Shown here piece by piece: positions 796-63,850 of a DNA stretch of 64,000 bases. This stretch comes from Turritopsis dohrnii (Eukaryota; Cnidaria; Hydrozoa; Anthoathecata; Oceaniidae). The stretch spans positions 310,001 through 374,000 of the forward strand of contig BQMF02000056.1 of the NCBI GenBank assembly GCA_027922465.2, in the 5' to 3' direction. Made by a program: the position numbers and the translations under genes. Numbering within the stretch: position 1 is the first letter of the stretch; each line of letters opens with the position of its first letter. A model generated the notes under the pieces. That model saw only the letters and a list, made by a program, of their open reading frames with translations. It did no database searches and had not been told where the DNA came from.

Positions 796-10384
<9,589 letters not shown>

Positions 10385-26100: not shown

Positions 26101-28357
26101 ATGTGTCATCATATTGGTTATTGTAGTCTGACACTGCAATCGCATATTCAACTTTTTCACCAGAAGCTTCTGTAAGTAACAGAAAAACAGAAAACCAATC
26201 TCATTTCATGAAAAATTTCAGTCTTACTCTCTGAAATAAATCCGAAGGACACTAATGGGATAGAAAAAATATAAAAAAAAACTTCCAGCAAAACTAAATG
26301 TTTTTGTTCCTAACACTAATAATTATCATCGCAAAATGCCTTCACACTTTTAGTTCATAATTCCCAAAGAAAATTGTTTATATACTCCGAAGTATTTCTT
26401 TTATCTCCAAGCCGGCACGAGATGCTGTGAATTTGTTTACAAGATCAAGAGCCATCAAGCCATTTTTATTCCCAATATTTACATCAGCTCCAGCCTAAAA
26501 GAAAAATTTAACATGGAATTGAAACAAAAAAAATCACATGATCAAACAAAACAAAACTTGATTGGGACACTAACATCCAACAGCAATCGTACAACATTGG
26601 TTTTTCCATATAAAGCTGCAAGATGAAGTGGAGTGCCATCAGAAGTTTCTTCATTCACATTCGCACCAGCTTGCAACAACAAATGTGCAATGTCATCATG
26701 ACCGCATTTTGCTGACAGGTGCAATGGTGACTTATGATTCTCGTTTGCAGGTGGAGTTATCAGCATGAAGGTGACCTTTTCATCTGTCAGAAGTTCCCGT
26801 ACCGCCTAAACACAAAACAAAATGCAGGACAACTCCAGAGACGAACTTGTAAAATCAAAATATAAACAAACCATCAAAATCATACCGAAGTATGACCAAA
26901 TTGACAAGCCAGATCTAAAGGGGTTTCCATGTTATTGTTACACAAAGATGCATCGGCACGGTAATCCAGTAAAACTTTTATCTGTCATTAAAAAAAACAA
27001 CAACAAACAAACACAGAAATAAAGCAAAAGCAACACCCTTGAAAAACAGAGAAAAAAATATAACTTGGAGACCAAACTTACGCAAGCAGCATATCCATGT
27101 TGAGCAGCAAGATGCAATGCCGTATCTCCGCTCATTGATGAAAGGTTTGGTAAACCATCACTATCGAGTAAAGCTTTCACTGTGCTATCTTTGCCACCCC
27201 AAGATGCCAAATGGATAGGTGTCATTCCTGGAAGCATAGTAGAATTGCTAAAACTTATAATGAAACCAATTTGTTAATCAAAACTAGAATATTCAGAGTG
27301 TATCCTTATCTAGCAAATAGAGATTGTCAATGTTGCTTTTCTCACAATTTCATAGATATAAGATCTCCTTTCATTTTAATAAAACAGTTGCCAAAGTGTG
27401 CATTGCCAAAGATCATCAGCATGTCACCTTTTGTATCCCTGCAGTTCGGATCACCCTCCATTTCAATAATGGCCATAACCATATCAACGTCACCAGATAA
27501 TGCAGCATAGTGCAATGGAGCAAACCTAAGTCACGAAGCATAGGAAAGACAAACCGTTATTATCAAGAAGAAACAGCAGACATTTATATATCAGAAGAAA
27601 AAAGTGATGTGATGATATTAAAGGTTGCAAAATTAGCTTCTGTTGAATTCAATGAAAATAATAATGACTTGATTCACATACCCTTCATGATCTGGAGTAT
27701 TTATGAAGGACTTCTTGTGGCTATGTTTCTCTGTAAGCAAATTTAATTGACAGGTAGTTAAAAATAGACATTATAGACTCCTGTTTGTAAAGAATGACCA
27801 ATTCCTTCATTATAACAAAAATACAAAACCGAAAGACATTAGATTGAAAGGATGCTATTTTTGTATATTGTTGAGTTATATTATCTTGTTTAATAAAAAA
27901 ACATTTTTTTTCAACAACATTTTGGAAACATTTTTCACACCTGTACATTCTCATAGTGCTGGCATGAAAATATTTAAAAATACTAAATCAATTTTCGTAA
28001 TTGCATTTTTCAATAAATGCTTGAGTTAATAAAACAAATTTAGTAAAAGATTAAGTGTTTGTATCACCCAAAAAGATATTCTGTTAAGTTTACATCTATG
28101 AGGATCATAGTTTAATTTAATTTGTGTTTAGATTCATGATCACCAATAAACATCATCAGAGATAGACTATGTCATCATAGTTAAAAACTATTAAAGAATA
28201 AAGAATAATGATACAAATTTTACAAATTCCAATTTCACACAAATAAACACAAAGCAATTTAAAACTTACTGCTTTTACGATATTTATGAAGTGTTTTTCG
28301 TACATACTGTCCATTACCCTCCCTTACTGCATGCAGCAACTCATGTTCTTTGCCCAT
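14198..28357 (-). CDS. CASKIN: CASKIN-type multidomain scaffold, complete
   Basis: Twenty-three coding exons join in frame to 1222 codons plus TAA. High-to-low they are 28357-28270, 27730-27682, 27525-27428, 27227-27082, 26981-26886, 26805-26575, 26494-26386, 26169-26069, 25923-25870, 25797-25689, 25265-25218, 25078-25007, 23751-23414, 23165-22658, 22587-22519, 22410-22373, 22211-22101, 20117-20016, 19935-19716, 16230-15913, 15724-15434, 15134-14744, 14279-14198. The start MGKEHELLHAV matches vertebrate CASKIN MGKDQELLQAV. Ankyrin repeats fill residues 30-272 (PLHYAALSG, PIHLASWGG, ALHLAAQHG, PLHLSAKCGHDD, PLHLAALYGKT). An SH3 domain lies at 275-335 (AVSDYNNQYDDTCLSF, GRWKGY, SGYFP). Two tandem SAM domains lie at about 719-862 (VTKAGHRKKLL, VKKKGHQKKLLLAV). 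A proline-rich tail leads to the conserved acidic C-terminal motif (DIMADIMADIDDFSKQID). Several YxNx/YENx tyrosine sites lie in 22658-23165. CASKINs are CASK-, Abi2- and LAR-binding scaffolds of synapses and cell cortex; that role here is inferred. Confidence 0.95.
15849..15926 (-). repeat. Three tandem copies of a CASKIN splice-donor region
   Basis: On the minus strand ATCCAAGTCTAGAG followed by GTATTA occurs three times, with donors at 15912, 15882 and 15854 (coordinate of G). The first fits the modelled exon end at 15913. Use of the second would add 30 nt in frame (GIIFFISKSR). The third, 28 nt further, would shift frame and meets a stop. Confidence 0.7.
16231..19715 (-). other. Large CASKIN intron, no gene seen
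   Basis: The flanking exons are phase-compatible (G then AA) and no extra exon is needed. The intron is AT-rich with poly-A/T runs and one Tigger-like repeat at 19465-19583. The ORFs in it look random. Confidence 0.6.
19465..19583. mobile_element. Tigger/pogo-like short element (TCGAGTTATC type)
   Basis: AGTTCGAATCCTTGATAACT at the left and GGTTCGAGTTATCAAG at the right are inverted. The same TTCGAGTTATC ends recur at 34864-34964, 41911-42005 and 44781-44884, so this is a small dispersed family. The superfamily is a guess from the terminal motif. Confidence 0.5.
20376..20496. mobile_element. CCCAGTGGGC MITE copy, diverged
   Basis: It starts CCCAGTGGAGATATT and has TCTCTGCGAAAGAG and GCTCTCCGTCGCAGTG cores. 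The right end reads GCCTACCGG. A still more decayed copy may lie at about 20155-20250. Confidence 0.75.
20527..21819. mobile_element. 1.3 kb TIR element with GCTCGCCAAATT subterminal repeats
   Basis: The inverted ends ACCTTATTCGTACTAATT are flanked by AAT on both sides (20524-20526 and 21820-21822), a possible 3-bp target duplication. Both ends carry several copies of TCGCCAAATTAAATGCTCGC-like subterminal repeats, in opposite orientation at the two ends. No transposase is encoded. The element sits in the CASKIN intron between the two halves of SAM1 and contains the 380-bp palindrome. Confidence 0.8.
20801..21180. repeat. 380-bp near-perfect palindrome (fold-back)
   Basis: Arms of about 185 bp mirror around 20990. 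Outer ends are CGCCTCTGCG and CGCAGAGGCG. Inner parts pair AGTGGTATGCACAGCGCCGA with its complement, and CGATGCGTCGTTTTGAGAAA with its complement. Mismatches are few. It is nested inside the 1.3 kb TIR element. Confidence 0.9.
21897..22018. mobile_element. CCCAGTGGGC MITE copy
   Basis: Both ends are preserved (CCCAGTGGGC and GTCACTGGGG). The orientation reads GATGAAGAGCATT first. It lies 82 bp downstream of the CASKIN SAM1 exon in transcript direction. Confidence 0.9.
22253..22359. mobile_element. CCCAGTGGGC MITE copy abutting a CASKIN exon
   Basis: The core CACTGCGAAGGAGTGCATTT and ATCATCGCAGTGAC is intact, but the CCC/GGG ends are eroded. Its right edge is about 13 bp from the CASKIN exon 22373-22410, so it directly flanks that exon's donor. 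Confidence 0.85.
23806..23920. mobile_element. CCCAGTGGGC MITE copy
   Basis: The left end is CCTAATGGGTAAATT and the right end GCCCACAGGG. A short internal deletion removes part of the central TATACACAC region. Confidence 0.85.
23921..25006 (-). other. CASKIN intron, no gene seen
   Basis: The sequence is AT-rich with poly-A runs and an AT-dinucleotide run near 24660. Flanking exons are phase-compatible and nothing else was recognised. Confidence 0.5.
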
Positions 28358-30613
28358 TTTCCAACAAATATTCACACATTATAATTGCAACTTCTTGACG
28401 TCATTAATCAGGTTATTTTGAAGTCACATCATGAACGATAAATCTAATAATATCTATAGATAACAGGCATGAGAATGATGGAGCTTCAAGATTCACAAAA
28501 ATAAACAATCTAAATATTTGTTAAGGAGTACACTGTTGCTTTTAAACAAATATACAATTTGCAAAAAGATTAATACATTCAGTAAATTCAAATGCTTTTG
28601 CACCTTATTTAGCTCCAGCAGATTAGCCAGTGTTTATACATCATTAAAAAAACAAACATTCCCACATTTGGATAAAACAATTTTGGTCTTAACTAACTGA
28701 TGTACTTTGCTATTGAATTGAATTTGAAAGTCCAGAAAGGTTATGGCATTTTGTTCTATATAAAACTAGCAGATAGCATAAAAGCAATTAAGAATCCGAA
28801 GCAATGCACTCTATTACTTCCTAATTACAGACACAGATAATTACGATGGAAAGTCAATTAGCAAACAAACATCAATCAACAATCACAATATTGCATTTAA
28901 CAAAAACTACATAAAAGCCAAACCTGTTGTATTCAAGTCAAGTTAATTCATTTATGTGTCACATCATAATATACAAAATTTATAATGGTATAGGCAAACT
29001 AAATACAAGATTGATACAAAGGACCTCCTAGCCCGCCAGCTGGGAAATAATCTAGCTCTTACTGTTTCTTTATGTAAATAAATAAAAAGGATTGTAATGG
29101 TAATCAAAGTAATAAGTATCAAGATGAGATAAACAACAACATCAAGAAAACAAAGTACTGGCATATATGCACCATTTTTAGAGGCCTAAATATTGAACAC
29201 TCCAGATTAAACTGCAAAGGAATTGATCATGAGGGTGTTTGTACTGAAAGGCTTTTTTACCTCTTGTAGCCAAGTTTGCATAGGTCAAGAATGAATTGAA
29301 TACTGAAAGGAAACAGACATAAAATTAAAGCATTGAAACACTTAAGGCAGTATTTGAAAAACAACAAGATCCAGAAATGTGAATATTTAAAACAGCTGAA
29401 GAAAGGTTTAAAGTTAGATAGGAGAAAGAACAAAGATCTTTTTCTGAAGAGTTAACATACAATACAATAACAAAAGAATGATAACAATCAATATAAAAAT
29501 ACCATTTCTATGTGAAACAAGAGACAGAATTGAAAAACTGGTGTAAAACTTGTGTATTACTGATATCCTGGGGTTCTGGTACAATTTCTTAAGAAGGAAG
29601 AGATTGTATATTCCAAGATGCTGTTGTAACGGATTTTGCATAATATAGAAAGTACAGCAAAGAAAAATTCTCTTTACTTTTCCGATTCCATGATTGAAAG
29701 AAACAAATACCTAATGTTTCAATCTCTTTAATGAAAACCTTGAACATTTTGATGTCTATGTTTTGCAATTACACCAGTAGTTTTTACTAAATTTAACACA
29801 TTTATTTTTGATGAGTTCCAGGCTCTAAAGCATGAATCATCTTGTGGCTGATTTCTTTTCTAGGATCACTTAGTAACAAGATTTACAGTCGAAAATGACC
29901 TTTAAAAGGAATTTTAGTATAAACAGTGTAAAACAACACTCTGTCTATTAAACCAGTATCTTGCCAATAATAACCACTTTTTTAGTCCAAAAGCATACAT
30001 CAGCAGAAAAAATAGGTTTACCATGATAATACATAAGGGAGATGATGACCATTCGTATAAATTAAGAAAAATATCTGTCTGTCGGTGAAATTAGAATAAA
30101 GACAATATTAATAAAATTTAAAGAAAGTGTCAAAAGTCTTTCCACAAGCATGCTTTCCGTTGTCAACAGTTGTATAAATTCATTCCTCGTTTCAGAGTTT
30201 GTTTGCTTTCAGACAATACAATTACGAATCTACAGTCTACAACAACAAAAAGAGAACCCCAACTTTCACAAATACTGGAATGGCTTACATAATGTTCAAA
30301 AAGCATGTATATATCTGTTTCATGTCAAAATTTTGTGTGCTGATTTGACAACTAATATATTTTGTTATTGAACAGGAAATTATCACCATATCAAGAATTC
30401 TCTTTCCGACTTGATCATTCATTTAATGTTTCAACACTATTTATATGCAAATTATCAAGAAAAGAACACATACACTAAAATTTATTTTTACATATAGAGA
30501 GTTATCAATATCAGATCATAGAACAGGATTAAATCATTACGGAACAGTTTTCTTATGAAAAAACAGTAAAGTAAATCCAAATCTAACTTTTCAAGACATT
30601 TTAGCTTCATTTG
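28358..30613. other. Region upstream of CASKIN, no gene seen
   Basis: This would hold the CASKIN 5' UTR and promoter. The ATG at 28357 follows TGTTGGAAA on the minus strand. The remainder is AT-rich. Open frames are short and unlike known proteins. Confidence 0.4.
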
Positions 30614-33240
30614 CTCTTATTTCTTTGCAGGTGTCTCAAGACAGTAAACACCAGTGTCTGTAAAATATTTCCTCAGTACCAATATAATACATCGAGTTTA
30701 CTCGCAAAGCTCTTGACCAACCAAGGTCAGTTTGGTATTGGGGCCTTTGCTGATCTCCAAAAAGCCTTTGACACTATAGATCAAGAAATTTTATGCAAAA
30801 AACTTTTATACTATGGCATTCGCGGCATCACCAACAGGTGGTTAAGGTCTTATCTTTTCCAAAGATCCCGATTTGTCAAAATATTGAACTTTAAGTCTGA
30901 TTCAAAAATCATAAATCATCGCGTCTGTCCTTGGACCTATTATTTTATTTTACATCAATGATTTACCTTTCCTACTTTCCTACTCTGACATCTACCATTT
31001 TGCTGATGATACTAACCTCCTTCAACTTGACAGGTCATTGAAGTCACTGAAGAAATGAATTAACATTGATTTAAAACTTCTTTCTAGTTGGCTTAATGCA
31101 AATAAAATCTCTCTTAATGCCAGTAAAACTGAGTTTATCCTGTTTAGACATAAATCCAAACAAGATGCTGTTACAGGCATAAGGATTTCTGCGAAACCAG
31201 CTGAAGTATGAAAAAAGAAAGACTATGACATTCTTGAAATTTGAAGATTGAATGACTTCTACAATACAACCTCACATTTTTGGTCACACACTCCCTAGGA
31301 ATCCATGAAAGCATAACGGATACATACTATAGATCAAAAATAGATTAAACAAAAATAGAACTATTGTTAATCCTGCTTGAAAATTTGTCAACCTTTGTTC
31401 ATCTCCTGTGGTGATGGCAATTTACCTTTAAAAAAAAGTGTAAATAAGGCTTAAGTAAAAACAACAAAAGATATTACATACAAAGAAAAGAAATATGCGT
31501 AAGGTGTGAATCGTAACCATGGATATGCATTTCATACGACAGTTTTTTTTTAAAAGATACTATGTAAGAGCAAAAAGAAAAAAAGAAATAATTATATAAA
31601 AACACAAAAAATATAAGAAACAAAGTAAAAGCGAGAAATTCATCATTTAAACTTATTGCATCTAATTTACGCCATTCTTTAGAACTGAGTTTGTCCAATT
31701 GGGTAATTTTACTTTTAAAGGAATTTTACTTCATGTATCAACCTGAATGTTTTATTACAACATATTTCTGGCCATACAAATGCAGCAGCTGATTCTCTGT
31801 CTCGTTTGCAGGTCAACAAATTCCGTCTTCTATCTTCTTCTTCCTCTCCAGTTCCATCTGTCATCTGGTCAATATTGATCAACAAGCGGAATTTATTTAT
31901 TTAATAATTTACAACTTCGGGAGAAATAACTGAAGGTCAACTTATATACTATGAATCTACCTACCTAAGCTCTACCAAGCATTTAAAAATGTAGCTTTTA
32001 AAATGTTTTATGAATGACTTCAATGAATTTTGCTAACTGCAAGACAATACCAGCAACAAACCATAAGTTTATTATATATACAAGCTTCGAAATTGGTGAA
32101 TTCTCCATTGTGTTTTTAGTGAGAAATGTCTTTTTCTCGTGAATAAGTGGAAAAACACTAAAATACTTATATATTATAAAGAATGTTTTGGTAGTTTTCA
32201 TGTTATGTTTTGGTAGTTTTCATGTTTGGACAGCAGAAAAAAAACCAAAGCCGGTTTTAATGCATTTCTTGCTTTTGCAGAAATCTAAATTACTGAACTT
32301 TAAACTCAAGGTCAAAATTGGTGGGAGGAAACTACAACCTAGCCAGTTCATTAAATCTTGGTGTGTATCTTGATGAGGATCTCACCTAGAAAAAAAACAT
32401 TCATGAACTTGTGCACCGAGTAAAATCCGTCACTTCCTGCCTGAATCTGTTTTTCTAAATCTTTTCCTCTCATATGCGCTATGGCTGCCAGGCCTGGGCT
32501 TTGCATGAATCTACTAATAATAAACACATTCTCCTTCTTCAAAAAACTGCAGTTCGTCTCATTATTTTTCTTCCATTAGAACTCATCCCTATCCACTCTT
32601 TTCTAAACTCGGTCTACTTTTGATCTTTGATTTCACAAGAACCCTAAAATATCCTTTTCATTCATCAAATTCTCAATCACAAAATTCCTGATCACATTCA
32701 TAGTGCTTTCAATTTATCCAAATTATCCCATGAATACTAGAGGTAAGTCAGCAGGATCTCTATGTAAGCCTAGCATAAACACTACGTTATATGGTATTAA
32801 TTCTTTTACATATCAATATCTTGGTGGAATCTCCTCCAGTCTACCTATAAACACATCAAACCTAGCTTCCCTTTCATAAAACCAATAAAAATCTTGTCAC
32901 TAATTTCTTTCTAAGACACTACTTAACATGTAACTAGCTTCTCACTGTTGGATAAGTATCTCCTTAATCAGGAAACCCTACAGTTTGTTTACTTTTTTTA
33001 CTTATGTTTACCATATATCATTTAATTTATCTTTCTATTTTCTGTTGTATATTATATATATATATATTTGTAACTATATTTTTATTTTGTCTTCTTTTTT
33101 GGAGGTCACCTCCTTTGTTTAGATTTATCTAGTGGGGTGGTCTCCAGTCTTTATTTGTCTCATTAGACTTTGTATTCAATTTTTTTTGTGACAAAAAAAT
33201 ATTATTTTATTCTATTCTATTCTATTATTAAAATAAGTTT
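30614..33240 (+). pseudogene. Decayed non-LTR retrotransposon (LINE) with reverse transcriptase remains
   Basis: The frame from 30700 reads FADLQKAFDTIDQEILCKKL then YYGIRGITNRWLRSYL, the hallmark first part of a LINE reverse transcriptase. After a frameshift near 30955 it continues INDLPFLL and HFADDTNLLQLD, which carries the catalytic F-A-D-D box, then SSWLNANKISLNASKTEFIL with an internal stop before it. Between about 31200 and 32260 the frame is interrupted by unrelated sequence. It resumes with KIGGRKLQPSQFI and further thumb-domain-like fragments to about 32650. The element ends near GTGACAAAAAAA and a TTCTA repeat at 33210-33230. It is clearly non-functional, and its clade is not assigned beyond CR1/L2/jockey-like appearance. 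Confidence 0.85.
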
Positions 33241-50301: not shown

Positions 50302-50307
50302 TTTATT
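50302..50307 (-). terminator. Candidate polyadenylation signal AATAAA
   Basis: AATAAA on the minus strand lies about 180 nt after the predicted stop of the receptor gene's terminal exon (50483-50568). Confidence 0.45.
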
Positions 50308-50482: not shown

Positions 50483-50568
50483 TCATATAAGAACACAACA
50501 TGAGAAGTAGTTGGAGTTGATGGACTCAGATATGATTCTTCGTTGCAACGCAGTGCTATTTACTTGAG
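50483..50568 (-). CDS. Predicted terminal exon of the receptor gene
   Basis: After acceptor CTTCTCCTTAG, 86 nt complete a phase-1 codon and read TQVNSTALQRRIISESINSN, then YFSCCVLI and TGA. The phase fits every intact mini-exon. An AATAAA follows about 180 nt on. It was chosen on splice signals and phase only, so another terminal exon is possible. Confidence 0.45.
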
Positions 50569-53500
50569 CTAAGGAGAAGTAATGCATATCTCATTTTGTC
50601 ATTTTCATCAGTAACACTATAACAATAAATTATAGCAATATTTATATAGACGCCATTACCATTAATAAATAGAATTTCTAAACTTACTTGAAGGACCTTC
50701 AGGTTCAATGTCTACCACTTCTTCGTCTAAAAAATAAACAATAATATTATTGAAGGTCACAATGTTTAGTTTAGTTTTGGAAATGTTCATAGGCAATTTT
50801 TAAACCAATCACACGAAACTATTCCTTTCATGCTCTAGAAACTCGGTGGACTTAGAAAAAGGAAAGCAAATGTTAACACGTTTCTCATCCAATTCTCACC
50901 TTATTCTGAAGATATGGTTCACAATTCTATGCTAATTATCCTAGAGCGTCTCTTACACTGTCTTGGTGATTAGTTGGTTTGTAAATAGAAGCTCTGAACC
51001 TACTTGAAGGACTGTTTTGTTCACTGGCTGTTTGTTTTTCATTTAGGCAAAGAAAATCACCAGATAATAAAAACATTTTAATTGCGATCCTGAAAACGTT
51101 TCTTTAATAATTTCTATGACGATTTTTCAATATCATTTCTTGCACACCCAAGAAGCTGATCAGAATAAGTAAATAGAAATTCTGAACCTACATGAAGAAC
51201 TTTTCTGGTCAATGGCTGTGACTTCTTCGCCCAAGAGATTAAAGGATAAGCTAATTGATGGTGGAAACACTAACAAATGGGATCCTAAAGAAGTTTGTTT
51301 TCAAAAGTTCCAATTACAAAGCATCACTCTATCCACATCCAAGACACTGATGAAGATTAAAAATAGAACTTCGAAACCTACTTAAACGACTTTTCTTTTC
51401 AGTGGCGGTTATTTCTTGGTCTACGAAGTTAAAAGATAATTTAAACAATAGTGGTAGTGTTTTAATTGGGTTTATGAAGAAGTATATCTTTCTATTTCTA
51501 GACCAATTACACGATATCATTTCATAAACACTTTAGGCGTTGGTTATGATAAGTTAACGAATGCTTTCAACCGCCTTATCAGACGTTCAGTTCAGTGGTT
51601 GTCACTTCTTTATTTAGCAGTTTACATATTAATATAGAGGAATAAAATTGTTGGATGATAGAAGCAATTTGATTGTACTCCTGAAGAGGTTCCTTTTAAA
51701 ATCTCCATGAACAAAAGGATGCATCATATCTTATACCATCCAGATGCTTGTTAGTATTGGCAAATAGAAAATCTGAACCTACCGGTCTGGCCAATGGTTG
51801 TGATTTCTTCGGCTAAGAAATTAAACGAAAAAATCATTGATGGTGGAAACACCTACTATGGAAGATTTGTCTTCATATGTCCATTTCAACTACAAATGAT
51901 CATTCTATCCACATTAAAGACACTCATGAAGATCAATTAATAATATTTCGAAACTCACTTGAATGACTTTTCTGTTCAGTGTATGTTATTTCTTCGTCTA
52001 CGAAGTTAAGGGATAATTTAAACAATAATGGAGGCATTTTAATTGTATTCACTTGAGAAGCATATTTAGTATTAGCAAAATGAGAATCTTAATCCGCTGG
52101 TTTGTTCATTAGAAGCTCATTAGTATTAGGAAATAAAAAGTCTGAACCTACCAGCTTGGTCACTGGTTGTACCTTCTCCAACTAACAAATTAAAAAATAA
52201 AATAATTGATGGTATCAAATGGGATCAAATGGGATCCAAAAGAGGTGTGTTATCAAATGTCTAATTCAACAACCATTCATCACTCTATCCACATTCAAGA
52301 CACTGATGAAGATGAAATAATAAAATTTTGAAACCTACTTGAACAACTTTTCTTTTCATTGGATGGCATTTCGTCGTTTAGGAAGTTAGAGGATAACTTA
52401 GACAGTAGTGAAAGCAATTTAATTGAGTTCCTTAAGAAGGATATCTTAAAAGTTCTGCCTCAATTACACAAGATCATCTCTCACGCACTCTAGATTTTGG
52501 TAATAACAAGTTAATAAAAGCTTTCAACTTCCTTATAAGACTTTTCTGTTCACTGCTTGTCACATCTTCATTTATGAGTTTACAGGATAAATGATGGGGA
52601 ATAAAATTGTTGGATGAAAAATAAAATTTGATTGCACCCCTGAAGCGGTTCCTTTTGAAATCTCCATGAAAAAAATGATGCATCATAACTTACACCATCC
52701 AGAAGCTTATTAGTATTAGCAAATAGAAAAACTGAACCTACCGGTCTCGTCATTGGTTGTGACTTCTTCCTCTAAGAAAATAAACGGAACACTAATTGAT
52801 GGTGGAGACACTAACAAATGGGATCCTGAAGAGGTTTGTTTTCAAAAGTTCCAATTACAAGGCATCACTCTATCCACATCTAAGACACTGATGAAGATTA
52901 AAAATAGAACTTCGAAACCTACTTGAACGACTTTTCTTTTCAGTGGCGGTTATTTCTTGGTCTACGAAGTTAAAAGATAATTTAAACAATAGTGGTAGTG
53001 TTTTAATTGGTCTAGAAATAGAAAGATATACTTCTTCATAAATATGAAGAAGTATATCTTTCTATTTCTAGACCAATTACACGATATCATTTCATAAACA
53101 CTTTAGGCGTTGGTTATGATAAGTTAACAAATGCTTTCAACCGCCTTATCAGACGTTCAGTTCAGTGGTTGTCACTTCTTTATTTAGCAGTTTACATATT
53201 AATATAGGGGAATAAAATTGTTGGATGATAGAAGCAATTTGATTGCACTCCTGAAGATATTAGTATTAGCAAATAGAAAATCTGACTTTTCTGTTCACTG
53301 CTTGTAAATGATGGGGAATAAAATTGTTGGATGAAAAATAAAATTTGATTGCACCCCTGAAGAGGTTCCTTTTGAAATCTCCATGAAAAAAATGATGCAT
53401 CATATCTTACACCATCCAGAAGCTTATTAGTATTAGCAAATAGAAAAACTGAACCTACCGGTCTCCTCATTGGTTGTGATTTCTTCTACTAAGAAAATAA

Positions 53501-56500
53501 ACGAAACAATAATTGATTGTGGAAACACTTACAACGGGACCCTGAAGATGTTATTCAACAAATGTCTATTTCAACTACAAATGATCATTCTATCCACATT
53601 CAAGACACTGATGAAGATTAATTACTAAAATTTCGGAACTCACTTGAATGATTTTTCTGTTCAGTGGATGGCAGTTCAAGTAAATCGCATAATTATTTTC
53701 TCCAATTTTACACAATGACAAGCATATGATTTTAAATAGTTTAAAACATTTTTGAAAATTTGTTAAATTTTCTCTTAATTTGGTTTAGATATAACAATTA
53801 TGGACTAAAATATCGCAAATTGCTACCTTCTATGTGGACGTTGTGAAAAATTCGGGGATGGCATGTTTTAAAACTCCATCACATGTTAATTACTCAAATA
53901 AATCTTCTGTGACCGTCCTTTCTGATAAGCTTTAAAGTTTTTGGTTACAAAACCTTTCAATAATAAACATGATCAATTGTTGCTTTGAAAAATGTCAAGT
54001 ACCATTGAGGAAAAAATTTGGCAACAAGAAAATTTGGCGGATTAGGCTTTAACTTATTTTACATTTACGGAGTATTTCTTTCAGTAATTAAACCCCGTAA
54101 ATGTAACGGTTCAATATTGGAAGATATCCAGTTGAAAATGGTCATGTTGCTACAGCACTAAAATTCTCAAGTAAGGAAAAATCTCTCAAGTTTGTACCTG
54201 TGTGCTTTCATACTATATTCAAAAAAAGGAGGAAACACAGTTCCCATCACAGGTAGTTCGGATAAGTGATGCATTACAAGCACATTTATAGTAACAATTG
54301 AATCGATTCTTTCAAGAACATCCCTCCTCTGTTGGCAAATACAAATGATTTCAGTGGAAGTAAAAATTTTGTCCCACAGACATAACCAAGGATTTGTTCA
54401 ATCTCGTCTTGCTGACGATGATTCTGATTGGAACACAAAATCGACGACTTCAATTAGGCGATTCCTACATCGATGACAATTTCAAATGACATTTTGATTT
54501 TAATTAAGCCTTGTTGATGTCATTTGTAAGTAGAAACAATTTAAACAAATTGTAAATATTTTGTCATCATCTAAACGAAATGGCTGCCAAGTTTAGAGAA
54601 AATTTGCAACCGCCAAACTAACATTCCGCCCATTGCAAATACTATTTTCGCAAAGAAAGTTTTGATCATCCTTTTTCACAAGCTTAGAAAATCTTGCATA
54701 CTTACTTATGTTGTTTAACATATCGAACAGGATGCACTGAAGGGAATTTGTCGCTATCGAGTTCGGACTTGGAATTCCTAGTATTTCACTCTCAGTGGAT
54801 GTCGTTTTTTCGTCTACAAAGTTAAAGGATAATTTAAACAATAGTCCAAGCATTTGTGTTCACTTGAGAAGCTTATAGGATTAGCATCACTTCTTCATTT
54901 ATGAGTTTACAGGATGGAAAACAAAATTGTCGGATGAAAAAAAAATATTATTGCACTCCTGAAGCGGTTCCTTTTGAAATCTCCATGAAAAAAGTGATGC
55001 ATCATATCTTACACCATCCAGAAGCTTATTAGTATTAGCAAATAGAAAAACTGAACCTACCGGTCTCGTCATTGGTTGTGACTTCTTCTTCGTCTACAAA
55101 GTTAAAGGAAAATTGAAACAATAGTGGAGGCATTTAAATTGAGATCACTTAAAAAACGTATTAGAAAAATTGAAATTCTCAACCTACCGGTCTGGTGAGT
55201 GGTCGTGACTTCTTCAACTAAAAAATTAAAGGATAAGATAACTTATGGCAGATAAACTTACATTGGAAGCCGAAAGAGGTTTGTCTCCAAAGCCGCACAC
55301 CAATTGCAGAACATTATTCTATCTACTTTGTAGACGCTCGTGAGTATTGCTAAGTATAATTTATGAACTTACTGGAAGGACTTTCCTCTTCACTGGCTTT
55401 CACTTCTTCTTCTATAAAAGAAAACAACAACCTTTGTTTTCAAATTTAGGAAACGTTTGTGTTGAACTTTTTATGGCAATTACACAAGATCTGGAATTAA
55501 TAAATTGAACCAATATCCATACTTTTTTACACAGTCCAGACAGTGATTGGGATTAATAAATGAAAACTTTAAACTTACTTGACGGACTTTTCTGTTCATT
55601 GGCTGCCATTTCTTTGTCTGAAAATGTCAATGGTCAGAAAACATAAAGTGAAAATTCTCGTTAAAAGTTTGTGTACAAATTTCGACGACAACGCCTGATA
55701 TGTTGTTCAAAATTACAAAGATTCTGCTTGGACCAGTCTTTGACCTACTAGTGCATGACAAGTGCCTTGAGTTCTTAAGACAGAAATGCTTATATCTTTG
55801 CTGCAATTTCCCTGATAGGCGTTTAAAGCGCATAGGAAAGGAGTATTAAAATATAACGTGACAAATACTCCGATATGTGTAGCAACAGGTTCAAAAGGTT
55901 CCAATCACAATGCCCCCAGTGGTTAAGCATTTTTTATTAGTCTACAACCACTTTTTGTGCTAGAGGATAACTAACTAGTAAAAAGTTCGAAGACAAATGG
56001 TAGCAGACACCGTTTACATTCAATGTGCAATTAATAAATAAAATCATAAAAAGATTAATTGATCACAATCAAGTTCATTTTGGAAGAACTTCAACGATAA
56101 AATAAAAAGAATATCAATTCTACAAATCAAATCTTCGATTTTTAGAATTTAGCAACCGGCAAATTTGCATAATTAAGTTCGTAAATTTAGGTTCGTAACT
56201 TACAGTACCTACTTGATATCATTATGGAAAGATAAAGCAGCGTCAACATGGTCGTTAAAGTACTCGGATGTCGAATTCCTAGTATTTCACTTTCAACATG
56301 CAATACATCCTCATACAACTTCATCGATTCATCGTACTTGCCTTGATCTTTCAAAACACCGGCCAGGTTCGACTTGGTCGTTAAAGTACTCGGATGTCGA
56401 ATTCCTAGTATTTCACTTTGAAGTTGCAATACATCCTCATACAACTTCATCGATTCATCGTACTTGCCTTGCTGATTCAAAACACCGGCCAGGTTCGACT

Positions 56501-59500
56501 TTATCGTTAAAGTACTCGGATGTCGAATTCCTAGTATTTCACTCCAAACATGCAATACATCCTCACACAACTTCATCGATTCATCGTACTTGCCTTGATC
56601 TTGCAAAACACCGGCCAGGTTCGACTTGGTCGTTAAAGTACTCGGATGTCGAATTCCTAATATTTCACTTTGAACTTGCAATACACCCTCATACAACTTC
56701 ATCGATTCATCGTACTTGCCTTGATCTTTCAAAACACCGGCCAGGTTCGACTTGGTCGTTAAAGTACTCGGATGTCGAATTCCTAGTATTTCACTTCGAA
56801 CATGCAATACATCCTCATACAACTTCATCGATTCATCGTACTTGCCTTGATCTTGCAAAACACCGGCCAGGTTCGACTTGGTCGTTAAAGTACTCGGATG
56901 TCGAATTCCTAGTATTTCACTTCGAACATGCAATACATCCTCATACAACTTCATCGATTCATCGTACTTGCCTTGATCTTGCAAAACACCGGCCAGGTTC
57001 GACTTTGTCGTTAAAGTACTCGGATGTCGAATTCCTAGTATTTCACTTTCAACATGCAATACATCCTCATACAACTTCATCGATTCATCGTACTTGCCTT
57101 GATCTTGCAAAACACCGGCCAGGTTCGACTTTGTCGTTAAAATACTCGGATGTCGAATTCCTAGTATTTCACTTTCAACATGCATTACATCCTCATACAA
57201 CTTCATCGATTCATCGTACTTGCCTTGATCTTTCAAAACACCGGCCAGGTTCGACTTGGTCGTTAAAGTACTCGGATGTCGAATTCCTAGTATTTCACTT
57301 TCAACATGCAATACATCCTCATACAACTTCATCGATTCATCGTACTTGCCTTGATTTTTCAAAACACCGGCCAGGTTCGACTTGGTCGTTAAAGTACTCG
57401 GATGTCGAATTCCTAGTATTTCACTTTGAACTTGCAATACATCCTCAAACAACTTCATCGATTCATCGTACTTGCCTTGCTGGTTCAAAACACCGGCCAG
57501 GTTCGACTTTGTCGTTAAAGTACTCGGATGTCGAATTCCTAGTATTTCACTTTCAACATGCAATTCATCCTCAAACAACTTCATCGATTCATCGTACTTG
57601 CCTTGCTGGTTCAAAACACCGGCCAGGTTCGACTTGGTCGTTAAAGTACTCGGATGTCGAATTCCTAGTATTTCACTTTCAACATGCAATACATCCTCAT
57701 ACAACTTCATCGATTCATCGTACTTGCCTTGATCTTGCAAAACACCGGCCAGGTTCGACTTGGTCGTTAAAGTACTCGGATGTCGAATTCCTAGTATTTC
57801 ACTTTGAACTTACAATACATCCTCATACAACTTCATCGATTCATCGTACTTGCCTCGATTTTTCAAAACACCGGCCAGGTTCGACTTGGTCGTTAAAGTA
57901 CTCGGATGTCGAATTCCTAGTATTTCACTTTGAACTTGCAATACATCCTCACACAACTTCATCGATTCATCGTACTTGCCTTGCTGGTTCAAAACATCGG
58001 CCAGGTTCGACTTTGTCGTTAAAATACTCGGATGTCGAATTCCTAGTATTTCACTTTCAACATGCATTACATCCTCATACAACTTCATCGATTCATCGTA
58101 CTTGCCTTGATCTTTCAAAACACCGGCCAGGTTCGATTTGGTCGTTAAGGTACTCGGATGTCGAATTCCTAGTATTTCACTAACAACATGCAATACATCC
58201 TCATACAACTTCATCGATTCTTCGTACTTGCCTTGATTGTTCAAAACACCGGCCAGGTTCGACTTGGTCGTTAAAGTACTCGGATGTCGAATTCCTAGTA
58301 TTTCACTTTCAACATGCAATACATCCTCATACAACTTCATCGATTCATCGTACTTGCCTTGATCTTGCAAAACACCGGCCAGCTTCGACTTGGTCGTTAA
58401 AGTACTCGGATGTCGAATTCCTAGTATTTCACTTTGAACTTGCAATACATCCTCATACAACTTCATCGATTCATCGTACTTGCCTTGCTGATTCAAAACA
58501 CCGGCCAGCTTCGACTTATTCGTTAAAGTACTCGGATGTCGAATTCCTAGTATTTCACTAACAACATGCAATACATCCTCATACAATTTCATCGATTCAT
58601 CGTACTTGCCTTGATCTTTCAAAACACCGGCCAGCTTCGACTTGGTCGTTAAAGTACTCGGATGTCGAATTCCTAGTATTTCACTTTCAACATGCAATAC
58701 ATTCTCATACAACTTCATCGATTCATCGTACATGCCTTGATTTTTCAAAACACCGGCCAGGTTCGATATGGTCGTTAAAGTATTCGGATGTCGAATTCCT
58801 AGTATTTCACTAACAACATGCAATACATCCGCATACAACTTCATCGATTCATCGTACTTGCCTTGATCTCTCAAAACACCGGCCAGGTTCGACTTGGTGT
58901 TTAAAGTACTCTGATGATTTTTTCCAAATAAAGTTTTTCGCATCTCTTTGATTTTTGTCAACGCTGCTGCAGCCTGTACATAAAATCCCTTGTCGCTTTT
59001 TATTAAACTTTCTTGTTCTTTTACCATCATCGCTGTTGGATGTGATTCCGATAAAAGAGTGTTCACTTGCTTTGTCAAAGTCACTAAGATTTCTTCACTT
59101 TCATGAATTCTGCCAGCTGTTTTCAGTACTTTTGATAATGTGAGTTTGACTTGATAGGTTGCTGGATTTTCATCGCCAAAGTCATCTATACATTCGTTGT
59201 ATACGTGCTGAATTGTTTCAAGTGCTTTTTTGTAATTCCCTCCAAATACATGAAGATCTGTGAGACGTAGTTGCAGCTCTCTTCCAATTTTACTACTTTT
59301 TTGCACCGGATAACTTTCTAGTAATGTCTCCACTTCATTAAAATTAGCGGTGTGGATTGATTTCTTTAATTTCAAGATATCGATCCTTAATCGACACTTG
59401 TTGTCAATTTCCTGGTCGTTCCATATGTGGGTGTCTAAGATATTTTGTAAATCATCAAGGTTTTCGTAAAGTTCAAACAAACAATTACCATACAGATACA

Positions 59501-61364
59501 GTATTTTGGATTGGATATTCACGTTGACTGTTTTTATATTCTTTGGATTGATAAGGTCTTCCATGACCTCTTTGCATTTCCTGTAATCGCCATTCCTGTA
59601 AAATGATTTCGCTTTCATATAGTCAATGTAGATCAGCTCTTCACTTGAAAATGTGAAATTCTTTTTCCAAAAATTTAAGTGATCAACAGAATTTTCGAAT
59701 TGGCCACGATTTAGCAATGTTCGTACTGATCCTTTCACGATGTCGATGATTCCATCAATTCTTCCCATGGCGTTAGTGTTTGACAAAATACAGTGGTAAA
59801 TGTGATTAGACCAGTAATCTCCAAACTGGATATGCTTGTGATTCTGGTTTTCTTCAATGGCATTTCTGCACATGGTTATGACATCGTTAACGGCTCTTTG
59901 CTTCTCCATCGCTGTCATTGACTCTCGAATAACAGATTGCAATAACGAATGGATAGATGTATTTTGATTTTCTTTATCGAATTGTACCAAAGAATATTTA
60001 CGTAGCAAGGCTCTTGCGTCTAGCATATCAAATTCCTCAACATCGTGTAATTTTTGAAGGAAGGTATGACTAATCGATTTCCCGTTGATGATGGACATGA
60101 TGAACGCGATTCGTGTAGCGGTTGGATTTAATTTTACATCGTTTAGTGCCATCTGATATGTGGTCCATATAGTTTTTCTGGTCTTGATCTCATGATTCTC
60201 AGGATCCTTCACCATGATATCAGCATAACATCTTTTAAACTTTTCCACGCATTTCTTAACAGAAGTTCCTGTAGTTTTCATTAACGCAGTAACCAGCTGT
60301 AATGCCAATGGAAGACATCCTACTTGTTCAGCTAACTCTTCATAAGTTTCAGGCGCTTCTCCACTACATCCTGTCTTCAAAATATTTACGGCAGCCTCTA
60401 GTGATAAAACAGGTAATTTCAAATGATCGTAGGATTTACTCCAATGAATGTACTGCGTTGTAATCAATATGTCACCATTATAGCTTTTATTGGGAAGATA
60501 TCGCTTGATTTCTGCAAAATCTTTGACATCATCAAACACAAGCAGGTGGTTCCATTGTGTCAGAAAGTCATACACACGTTTAACCATGACATTTATACTA
60601 ATAGATTCATTATTGCAATCATAGCGTGACAACCCAATTTGCTCCGCGACTCTCAGTAGGTCATACTGAACAGTACTTGAGTTTTCAGCGTTTACAAAGA
60701 TGACGTTGTTGTCGTAGTGTGATTTGAATCTGTGGCAGTAGGCTCTTGCGAGTTCCGACTTGCCCGAACCGGACAATCCGGATATCACTACTCTTTTACT
60801 TCCACTAGTAAATGATTGATGCAGCCAAGAAATCTCACTGTCTCTGCCGTCAAAGTTTTTTACAACATTTGTCAAACCAAATTCTACATTATCAAGATCA
60901 TTGTATATCGGACGGTTCATAACGCGATCTACGTCATCTTGTGTACATCCTAAGTCAAGTAAACTGTTGCAGAAATCTTGGATGAATTTTTGGTAATTTG
61001 GAATCAAACCAGAGTGTGCGTAACTATTCCTCACTTTCTTGAATGTGTCCAACTTGCTTTTGTAGTCATCACTGAGCTGGCAACAGGTTTTCATGATCAA
61101 TATCAGTGCCGTAGCATCCAAAGTGAATACATTAGTTTCCTTGGATGATGGAAACAGCTTCTGCCACTGTACTTTTCCAATGTGACCTTTGTTCTTAAGA
61201 CTTGAAAATTTCTTTAGAGAATTACTGAGGAAGTTGTAGAAATCTTTTGGGTCTTTAGGCACTGCATAGTCATTGTGCATAGTCTCAATGATCTTTTTCA
61301 AGCCACGGCAATATAAGCGGTCAATTCGTCGACGCTGTTTTACTTCATGCGGATTCATTCTTGC
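50483..61364 (-). CDS. HEPN (DZIP3-like) - NB-ARC - TPR receptor-type STAND protein with mini-exon tail; carries an in-frame stop
   Basis: The main exon is 61364-56213. It opens after a strong acceptor (CTCTCTCACAG), and the first ATG is at 61358 (MNPHEVKQRRR), so a 5' exon lies upstream. Residues 1-135 resemble the DZIP3-like HEPN domain (QWQKLFPSS, FTLDATALILIMKTC) with the R-x4-H motif RNSYAH at 110-115. NB-ARC follows: P-loop GLSGSGKS 194-201, Walker B LLVFDD 272-277, LITT 298-301, GCLPLAL 347-353, and IHSLLQ as an MHD-like site. A helical linker leads to 21 TPRs. Codon 1183 (57810-57812) is TAA where sister units have CAA, so the product stops at 1182 residues. The same frame stays open to 56213, ending ATATCAA then GTAGGT, phase 1, which fits the mini-exons below and a terminal exon 50568-50483. 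STAND proteins are oligomerising sensors; an immune role is inferred. Confidence 0.85.
53005..53078. repeat. Perfect 36-bp-arm palindrome
   Basis: The arms 53005-53040 (starting AATTGGTCTAGAAATAG, ending CTTCTTCATA) and 53043-53078 are exact inverted copies separated by AA. The sister segment near 51470-51515 has only the right-hand arm, so the left arm is an inverted duplication specific to this copy. Confidence 0.9.
54706..54813 (-). CDS. Hybrid 108-nt exon: mini-exon start fused to a TPR remnant
   Basis: The acceptor CTTTGTAG and the opening (N)EKTTSTE are mini-exon type A. The frame then continues SEILGIPSPNSIATNSL, clearly a diverged TPR unit (SEILGIRHPSTLTTKSNL), and ends at a strong donor AACATAA then GTAAGT in phase 1. 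It shows a direct sequence link between the TPR array and the mini-exon array. Confidence 0.65.
56244..58917 (-). repeat. 21 tandem 126-bp TPR units (kinesin-light-chain type)
   Basis: Each unit encodes 42 residues of the pattern RHPSTLTTKSNLAGVL, then xxQGKYDESMKLYEDVLxVx, then SEILGI. Units are nearly identical in DNA. Most differences fall at two places: after GVL (KDQ, QDQ, NQQ, KNQ, NNQ, RDQ) and after DVL (HVE, HVV, QVQ, HVR, HVW, QLQ). The 42-residue period matches the tetratricopeptide repeats of kinesin light chains and NB-ARC/TPR proteins. Confidence 0.95.
57810..57812 (-). other. In-frame TAA within TPR unit 9
   Basis: The coding strand reads GATGTATTG-TAA-GTTCAAAGTG where units 4, 8, 12 and 18 read GTATTG-CAA-GTTCAAAG. 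A single C-to-T transition makes the stop. The frame is open on both sides, with 12 further TPR units after it. Confidence 0.9.
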
Positions 61365-63125: not shown

Positions 63126-63353
63126 TGAAGAATTTCCGCATCAGCCCTTGAGAAAATTGCTTTAGGCTAATTTTCAAGATATCTGAATGACTTGTACACT
63201 GACTAATAATTTGATACAGTCTGGAATTCATCAAATTACTCCCTTCTTTAATTTATTTAACTTAATCTTGACAGCTTTGCAATTTACAATGATGTTTCGG
63301 GGCCAGAAAAACAGACCACCAATATCTTGCGCATAATGTTTATTCAGGAAAAT

Positions 63354-63850
63354 TGAAGGTTTTTCGAAATTTGGTCCAATTTTAGCCCAAATCATCAAAT
63401 TTTAGTCAAATCTGACAAAATGACTGTCAAATTCCAAATCAGCACCTTTCAAATGTAATCCATGGAAAATTTCATGAAATTTGAAGAACCTTCGAAATTT
63501 GGTCCAAATTTGGCCCAAATTGTCCAATTTTAGCCAAGTCTCACAATGTGACTGCCAGAATTGAAATCAGCACCTTTCAAATGTAATCCATGCAAAATTT
63601 CATGAAATTTGAAGAACTTTCGAAATTTGGTCCAAATTTGGCCCAAATTGTCCAATTTTAGTCAATTCTGACAAAATGGCTGTCAAATTTGAAATCAGCA
63701 CCTTTCAAATGTAATCCATGCAAAATTTCATGAAATTTGAAGAGCTTTCGAAATTTGGTCCAAATTTGGCCCAAATTGTCCAATTTTAGTCAATTCTGAC
63801 AAAATGACTGTCAAAATTGAAATCAGCACCTTGTCTAAATTGCCCAATTT
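63354..63850. repeat. Tandem repeat, period about 128 bp, four copies
   Basis: TTCGAAATTTGGTCCAA recurs at about 63364, 63492, 63620 and 63746, each followed by GGCCCAAATTGTCCAATTTT and ATCAGCACCTTTCAAATG. A truncated fifth copy ends near 63860. It is non-coding. Confidence 0.9.

Follow-up and report, generated by a model that had tools for sequence, protein, structure and literature searches.

Antibodies are absent in invertebrates, and how such animals obtain variable immune receptors from a fixed genome is an open question. We analysed a stretch of 64,000 nucleotides (nt) from the hydrozoan Turritopsis dohrnii (hereafter the window; C56:310001-374000, contig BQMF02000056.1 of GenBank assembly GCA_027922465.2), in which the minus-strand gene p01 displays a large exon for HEPN, NB-ARC and TPR modules followed by an array of very small exons of uniform phase. 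From comparison with ten fetched paralogues (p02-p11) we consider it likely that p01 belongs to a hydrozoan family of STAND (NLR-like) genes, in which the HEPN/NB-ARC/TPR exon ends in a phase-1 donor and leads into a tail of phase 1-1 mini-exons, or cassettes, that are optional in frame.

Repeated in-frame exons in STAND-type receptors

In brown algae, ROCO genes contain 72-bp phase-2 LRR exons and give rise to up to nine transcripts (PMC11378527), exon shuffling is reported for NB-ARC-TPR genes (PMC10197012), and both papers cite NB-ARC-TPR genes with exon shuffling and alternative splicing (PMC11378527, PMC10197012). Like the p01 family, these are STAND-type receptors with arrays of short same-phase exons. 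However, as we understand them, the shuffled brown-algal exons encode the sensor repeats themselves, whereas the TPR array of p01 is one undivided exon, with no distribution of its sensor repeats over separate same-phase exons. The p01 cassettes differ further in being 30-39 nt long, in following the TPR array and in encoding an acidic low-complexity tail, and they occur in an animal genome together with a HEPN effector. A study by Teng (2023) reportedly, to go by its title, also concerns NB-ARC-TPR genes and alternative splicing. In the truffle Tuber melanosporum, nank (NACHT-ANK) genes are alternatively spliced with codon-sized, frame-neutral microexons of 3 bp (PMC4986451, PMC10197012). Both nank and the p01 family are expanded STAND families with frame-neutral small exons, but the truffle microexons are said to diversify the sensor, whereas the cassettes of the p01 family, of 30-39 nt, make up a tail and differ in number among paralogues. 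NLRP3 and other human NLRs possess modular LRR exons that can be alternatively spliced without change of frame (PMC6642158); these modules are folded LRRs with length peaks at 69-174 nt, whereas the p01 cassettes are shorter, lie downstream of the repeats and evolve in an intron-like manner.

Cnidarians themselves are known to carry NACHT/NB-ARC proteins with TPRs (103 in Hydra viridissima, 38 or 29 in H. vulgaris and 57 in Acropora), as well as HEPN-NACHT proteins, with lineage-specific expansion (PMC7642931, PMC8260672). These share with p01 the STAND core, the TPR sensor and a Dzip3-like HEPN effector. The accessible parts of these surveys mention no mini-exon tail, whereas p01 has a core that Pfam assigns to NB-ARC and, as its 3' part, an array of cassettes. 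Outside the STAND class, the micro-exon genes of schistosomes consist of very small symmetrical exons and generate protein variation by splicing (PMC4350168). The tandem arrangement of such exons is also seen in p01 (of its 13 intact phase 1-1 exons, 12 measure 30-39 nt), but in p01 they do not make up most of the coding sequence (525 nt of cassettes versus a main exon of 5,146 nt). Micro-exon genes have most of their coding region in such exons and secreted or gland-associated products, whereas the p01 array is the tail of a large STAND protein. In titin the length of the PEVK region is altered through in-frame exon skipping. This region acts as an entropic spring (PMC7274174). Titin is a muscle protein unrelated in sequence to p01, and the parallel is one of mechanism only.

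The initial annotation of the window knew of no described STAND gene of such design. In the literature searched, outside which most subscription journals lay, none with a mini-exon tail was found, but STAND genes diversified by repeated in-frame exon splicing are reported from brown algae and truffle and for human NLRP3. In-frame exon arrays on STAND receptors thus have precedents, and what seems new is a drifting acidic mini-exon tail outside the sensor repeats. The p01 family would extend repeated-exon splicing of STAND-type receptors to an animal, with the cassettes in the tail rather than in the sensor.

Organization of the window gene

The features of p01, all on the minus strand and in window coordinates, are as follows (exon borders within sequences are marked by a slash in the text).

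56213..61358 (-): large exon with HEPN, NB-ARC, arm and TPR array (sequence parse; donor compared with paralogue donors)
61047..61238 (-): HEPN_DZIP3-like domain, amino acids 41-104 (Pfam E 7.6e-7)
60225..60803 (-): NB-ARC domain, amino acids 186-378 (Pfam E 1.1e-12)
56249..58916 (-): TPR array, 126-nt (42-amino-acid) unit, ~21 copies, 94% matches (TRF; Pfam TPR_10/TPR_12)
57810..57812 (-): in-frame TAA, codon 1183, inside the TPR array (sequence parse)
55579..55617 (-): mini-exon 1, 39 nt, phase 1-1
55373..55411 (-): mini-exon 2, 39 nt, phase 1-1
55188..55217 (-): mini-exon 3, 30 nt, phase 1-1
55061..55093 (-): mini-exon 4, 33 nt, phase 1-1
54706..54813 (-): 108-nt exon, phase 1-1, encoding ...SEILGIPSPNS...
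53459..53488 (-): mini-exon, 30 nt, phase 1-1
52923..52961 (-): mini-exon, 39 nt, phase 1-1
52742..52771 (-): mini-exon, 30 nt, phase 1-1
52152..52181 (-): mini-exon, 30 nt, phase 1-1
51959..51997 (-): mini-exon, 39 nt, phase 1-1
51783..51812 (-): mini-exon, 30 nt, phase 1-1
51382..51420 (-): mini-exon, 39 nt, phase 1-1
51192..51224 (-): 14th mini-exon, 33 nt, acceptor shifted by 6 nt (family AG changed to GG), still phase 1-1
50688..50726 (-): last mini-exon, 39 nt, phase 1-1
50997..53677 (-): seven broken mini-exon copies, interspersed (profile/model matches)
50483..50568 (-): terminal exon, phase-1 acceptor ACTTCTCCTTAG/CTCAAG (alignment with paralogues)
50302..50307 (-): AATAAA polyadenylation signal, ~180 nt past the p01 stop

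The large exon extends over 5,146 nt from the ATG at 61358 to the border ATATCAA/GTAGGT, with its last base at 56213; re-parsing bears out the earlier observation that this donor is in phase 1, the phase of the mini-exons. A splice acceptor, CTCTCTCACAG/GCAAGAATG, probably lies immediately 5', with the exon starting at 61364. The HEPN/NB-ARC/TPR reading of the initial annotation holds by Pfam. At the N-terminus, where STAND receptors carry an effector domain, the HEPN_DZIP3 match scores 29.4 against a cut-off of 27, and the motif RNSYAH is found at 61031-61014. The RNxxAH form (R-x4-H) recurs in all 11 genes, p01 included, and conforms to the Rx4-6H motif of HEPN ribonucleases, by which the HEPN domain of the family is predicted to be a ribonuclease. 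The NB-ARC ATPase of p01 has both a P-loop (GLSGSGKS, 60779-60756), present in 11/11 genes, and a Walker B-like LLVFDD (hhhhDD, 60545-60528); the strict Walker B pattern occurs in just 3/11. A DUF7779 match (amino acids 409-484) lies between NB-ARC and the TPR units, and the latter (TPR_10/TPR_12, ~21 units) provide the superstructure-forming C-terminal repeats of a STAND receptor, with the TAA interrupting them. An immune-receptor role and ligand-driven oligomerisation are putative, following from membership of this class.

The 13 mini-exons with intact AG/GT borders, as had been described, are all open, phase 1-1 and of 30, 33, 39 or 108 nt (in order 39, 39, 30, 33, 108, 30, 39, 30, 30, 39, 30, 39 and 39 nt, 525 nt in total). 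To these we add the copy with the shifted acceptor and seven broken copies (near 53677-53637, 53307-53283, 53200-53156, 52588-52526, 52394-52331, 51630-51586 and 51053-50997), which together account for the 21 profile matches in p01; one copy with a possible 81-nt reading was scored as broken for want of a pyrimidine tract at its acceptor. Since the cassettes are phase 1-1, any number of them can be included or skipped with the frame kept. The encoded tail is rich in Ser, Thr and Glu and acidic, as had been predicted, with 47 acidic versus 13 basic residues over the 13 mini-exons. A model of the 39-nt exon, trained in part on these same exons, matches the window 22 times at E <=1, always on the minus strand and within 50.68-55.63 kb. 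A scan of the array by fixed rules gave 16 candidates that do not overlap; 200 Markov simulations gave 1.1 on average and never more than 5, five control stretches gave 0-2, and the reverse strand gave none.

The array also contains a near-perfect palindrome of 74 nt (window 53005-53078; 72/74 positions self-complementary). One of its arms is missing from the second copy, near 51.5 kb, of the duplicated intron in which it lies.

Paralogues and the proposed joining of TPR exon and mini-exons

A protein search of the genome with the HEPN/NB-ARC part (90 match rows, only the best candidates being scored) identified at least 25 places besides that of p01 with at least 58% identity covering most of the query, and further matches at 28-49% identity. 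The paralogues p02-p11, retrieved with 20 kb around each, are the ten best of these 25 places. The TPR exon terminates in a phase-1 GT donor in seven of them (p02-p07 and p09) and in a phase-1 GC donor in p08, a total of eight phase-1 donors in ten paralogues. In 7/10 paralogues (p02, p05-p09 and p11) the TPR exon has intact mini-exons of this family downstream of it on its own strand. By the border rule the intact cassettes number 13 (plus one shifted) in p01, nine including the 108-nt exon in p02, seven in p09, two each in p05, p06, p07 and p08, and one, with a shifted acceptor, in p11, so that a family gene has 0 to 14 cassettes, mostly of 39 or 30 nt. A profile built from 27 mini-exons of these loci, whose E-values for its own members are not independent, gave 66 matches at E <=0.01 over 12 sequences, none on the opposite strand (p01 21, p02 11, a stretch of contig C579 6, p03 1, p04 1, p05 5, p06 3, p07 3, p08 4, p09 9, p10 0, p11 2). 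A covariance-type model of 22 mini-exons gave 50 matches at E <=0.01 over 21 stretches, with one weak match in p10.

The 3' ends of these genes are likewise shared. A stop-bearing mini-exon is present in 8/10 paralogues (p03-p09 and p11), with the stop earlier in p03 than in the rest; a donor-like AAGTAAGTG or a similar sequence comes after this mini-exon in all of them but p11. The terminal exon has a conserved pyrimidine tract, acceptor and phase in six genes (p01, p03, p04, p05, p08 and p09); BLAST matches begin 10-16 nt ahead of it in the five paralogues, and in p06 and p07 it aligns in its downstream part only. In these five paralogues it encodes 10-12 residues. A TGA at the aligned place in four of the five is missing in p01, where the frame continues to ...SCCVLI, an ending that resembles a CaaX prenylation box. 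A CaaX lipid anchor was considered as a family feature and rejected, since the ends encoded by the other five terminal-exon genes are 10-12 residues long and of the type TPVKTTANHL.

The same association is seen across the genome. Five DNA queries (the first mini-exon, two mini-exon types, the stop-bearing exon, and the last mini-exon together with the terminal region) gave 53 matches outside C56; one of these is the stop-bearing query's own locus, and certain places were hit by two or more queries. With 30 HEPN/NB-ARC match rows as anchors and a downstream limit of 25 kb, 37 of the 53 lie on the same strand as, and downstream of, a HEPN/NB-ARC exon, at 15 genes. The remaining 16 comprise 15 in one array on C579 and one on C118, ~1 kb downstream of a paralogue fragment. 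The layout therefore recurs at at least 15 loci of one genome. Outside this genome, a protein search with 8,000 candidates scored returned four distant TPR proteins, a PDB search returned 42 sequences with matches in the repeats, and no relatives were found in GTDB contigs (bacteria and archaea only); Rfam at gathering thresholds and a tRNA scan gave no matches.

The joining of the TPR exon to the mini-exons, as proposed in the initial annotation, is thus strongly supported by the paralogues at the level of the family, through the eight phase-1 donors, the seven genes with intact mini-exons and the terminal exon of six genes. For the p01 allele as assembled it is not supported, by reason of the TAA.

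Two side observations concern array structure. In p09 (L035, minus strand) a gap of 27 nt, too short for a normal intron, separates two 39-nt cassettes located 1941-2046 nt past the TPR-exon end; the pair constitutes an open 105-nt phase 1-1 exon, recurs at +2926 and is possibly a fusion of cassettes. The large array on C579 (C579:234892-241204, plus strand), an orphan array close to the end of the 241-kb contig, has upstream of it an unannotated 270-amino-acid frame (L041:6-818) that we judged by eye to be a transposase.

Origin, selection and splicing alternatives

The repetition of units along with their intron sequence indicates that the array expanded by duplication, and within the duplicated units cassette copies are found in every state from intact to dead. 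The 108-nt exon, intact in three arrays (p01, p02 on C30, and C579), has a mini-exon-like 5' part followed by sequence like the 3' end of the TPR exon, with 28/32 bases identical in the best local match and a local alignment score against the TPR exon of 44, versus a shuffle maximum of 23. Conversely, the TPR exons of p03 and p04 terminate in mini-exon-like fashion (TCAA/GTAAGTTT), and in p05-p09 and p11 the end donor, judged by eye, coincides with an AAG/GCAAGT present in the TPR units, as it does in p01 and p02 with a 3-nt gap. These resemblances argue that the TPR exon and the cassettes have exchanged sequence and share one splice phase. The arrays of p01 (50.5-56.2 kb) and p02 (C30:485884-489249) are ~16% different, with a synonymous divergence (dS) of 0.49 in the HEPN/NB-ARC exons, and look to have been shared or converted more recently than the preceding exons.

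The first 800 amino acids (HEPN/NB-ARC) are under constraint, with ratios of nonsynonymous to synonymous change (dN/dS) of 0.26-0.45 over 55 pairs of the 11 genes. In the arrays, the splice dinucleotides had one substitution and one indel event in 59 positions against an intron substitution rate of 12.5%, and there were no indel events in 526 aligned exon positions versus 48 in 4,192 intron positions. From these alignments we lean towards a constraint on mini-exon borders and frame. The arrays are also a natural record of the birth, exchange and loss of symmetrical micro-exons: letters drift freely, but live copies retain their phase and borders.

Several observations weigh against the proposed design. 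Purifying selection on the mini-exon peptides was looked for by dN/dS and by exon/intron rates and not found: the 39-nt exon has a dN/dS of 1.06 (from 25 distinct copies selected for being open, a few of which have imperfect borders), and exon substitutions (63/526) equal the intron rate (524/4192). Bias affects the border and indel tests, since in each pair one side had been selected as intact; corrected for this, the expected number of border changes falls from 7.4 to 3.7 and that of indels from 6.0 to 3.0. Within the p01 array itself, 269 exon positions contain 2 indel events, and substitutions are more frequent in exons (53/269) than in introns (245/1438). Among the paralogues, p10 is without a TPR-exon donor, an in-frame TAG precedes the donor of p11, and p06 is frameshifted; profile search and border rule found no intact cassette in p03, p04 and p10, and two weak model matches (E 0.005) fall within the main exons of p06 and p07. 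The C579 contig, despite its array, has no HEPN/NB-ARC or arm match among the matches listed. Finally, the p01 allele as assembled does not reach its mini-exon tail in frame: the TAA at 57810-57812, overlooked in the initial annotation, sits 1.6 kb ahead of the TPR-exon donor, and the encoded product stops at 1,182 amino acids. The earlier claim that p01 encodes a HEPN/NB-ARC/TPR protein with a mini-exon tail is accordingly not supported for this assembly.

The change that gave the TAA also created a GTAAGT, in phase 2 and so mismatched to the phase-1 mini-exons. Nonsense-mediated decay is expected for a message with a stop well ahead of several introns, and the p01 allele as assembled would yield a tail-less receptor or a degraded message; the TAA may be an allele or an assembly error. 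Alternatively, p01 may be a decaying gene inactivated by the TAA, with a large array, dead cassettes and a lengthened terminal frame left over from a relaxation of constraint. In that case the design would be real for the family and the p01 array would yield no receptor tail, a view compatible with our explanation at the family level. On it we are evenly divided: the stop within the TPR array, the 7/21 broken cassette copies, the absence from p01 of the TGA common to four paralogues at the aligned place in the terminal exon, and the mini-exon substitutions at the intron rate speak for decay, but the N-terminal dN/dS of p01 against the ten paralogues (0.32-0.45) implies that any loss is recent, 13 cassettes have kept intact borders, and the nearest paralogue, p02, carries the same kind of array after an uninterrupted exon with no stop in its 1,394-codon frame.

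For the family as a whole, we propose that one large exon would provide the HEPN domain with its RNxxAH nuclease motif, the NB-ARC switch and the TPR sensor. From its phase-1 donor splicing would proceed to between 0 and 14 mini-exons, often to a stop-bearing mini-exon and often to a short phase-1 terminal exon. STAND proteins as a class switch from a closed to an oligomeric state; in the p01 family a ligand at the TPR part would trigger this switch and bring HEPN nuclease domains together. The mini-exons are presumably spliced in vivo, in numbers that may vary among transcripts; with 13 independent cassettes 8,192 combinations would be possible, and combinatorial use is plausible. Because it is acidic and its residues drift at the intron rate, the tail may be a disordered, length-tunable tether in which length or charge, rather than sequence, matters. 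If so, the tail would offer a case, open to testing, in which selection acts on disorder and not on sequence.

An alternative also compatible with this anatomy is that the mini-exons are constitutive, with all intact cassettes included, one fixed tail per gene and diversity among paralogues only. We incline slightly against it: the cassette borders are ordinary and consensus-like, and the range of cassette number among paralogues (0 to 14) would by itself vary tail length, but exons as short as 30-39 nt are often weakly defined, and a third of the p01 copies have dead sites.

Beyond optional cassettes, nearly all TPR units of p01 contain AAG/GCAAGT as a latent phase-1 donor of GC type (20 sites), the uniform phase of which is due to the 126-nt unit. 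Counts in nine paralogues range from 3 to 37 such sites per exon, and several paralogues have their real TPR-exon donor at exactly this position of the last unit (GC in p08, GT in p09). The receptor might then be modular on both sides, leaving the TPR array at varied units and entering varied cassettes in frame, and one gene would give a very large receptor set differing in sensor as well as in tail length. We think this quite unlikely. Eight of the 20 p01 sites are upstream of the TAA, so that even p01 could reach its tail. Codon avoidance was considered as proof of the latent donors and rejected: the internal QG/KY glycines are GGC in 155/176 cases and GGT in 2, but other repeat glycines are equally frozen (GGT 77/77; GGA 171/184), a pattern of repeat homogenisation and not of splice-site selection.

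Least probable of all is that the array is a separate transcription unit or a non-coding duplicated intron unjoined to the STAND exon, for which the contig C579, with no STAND match among the matches listed, and the intron-like evolution of exon letters could be cited, but which is opposed by the same-strand, downstream placement at 15 genes, the fit of phase-1 donors to phase-1 acceptors in 8/10 paralogues, the TPR-like sequence within the array and the shared terminal exon in frame.

Elsewhere in the window, the following matches probably represent other genes and a retroelement.

7162-7539 (+): CRAL_TRIO exon
26545-27273 (-): ankyrin-repeat exons
30605-30958 (+): weak reverse-transcriptase match, below the Pfam cut-off

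Upstream of p01, a 128-bp tandem repeat in 3.8 copies occupies window positions 63343-63832.

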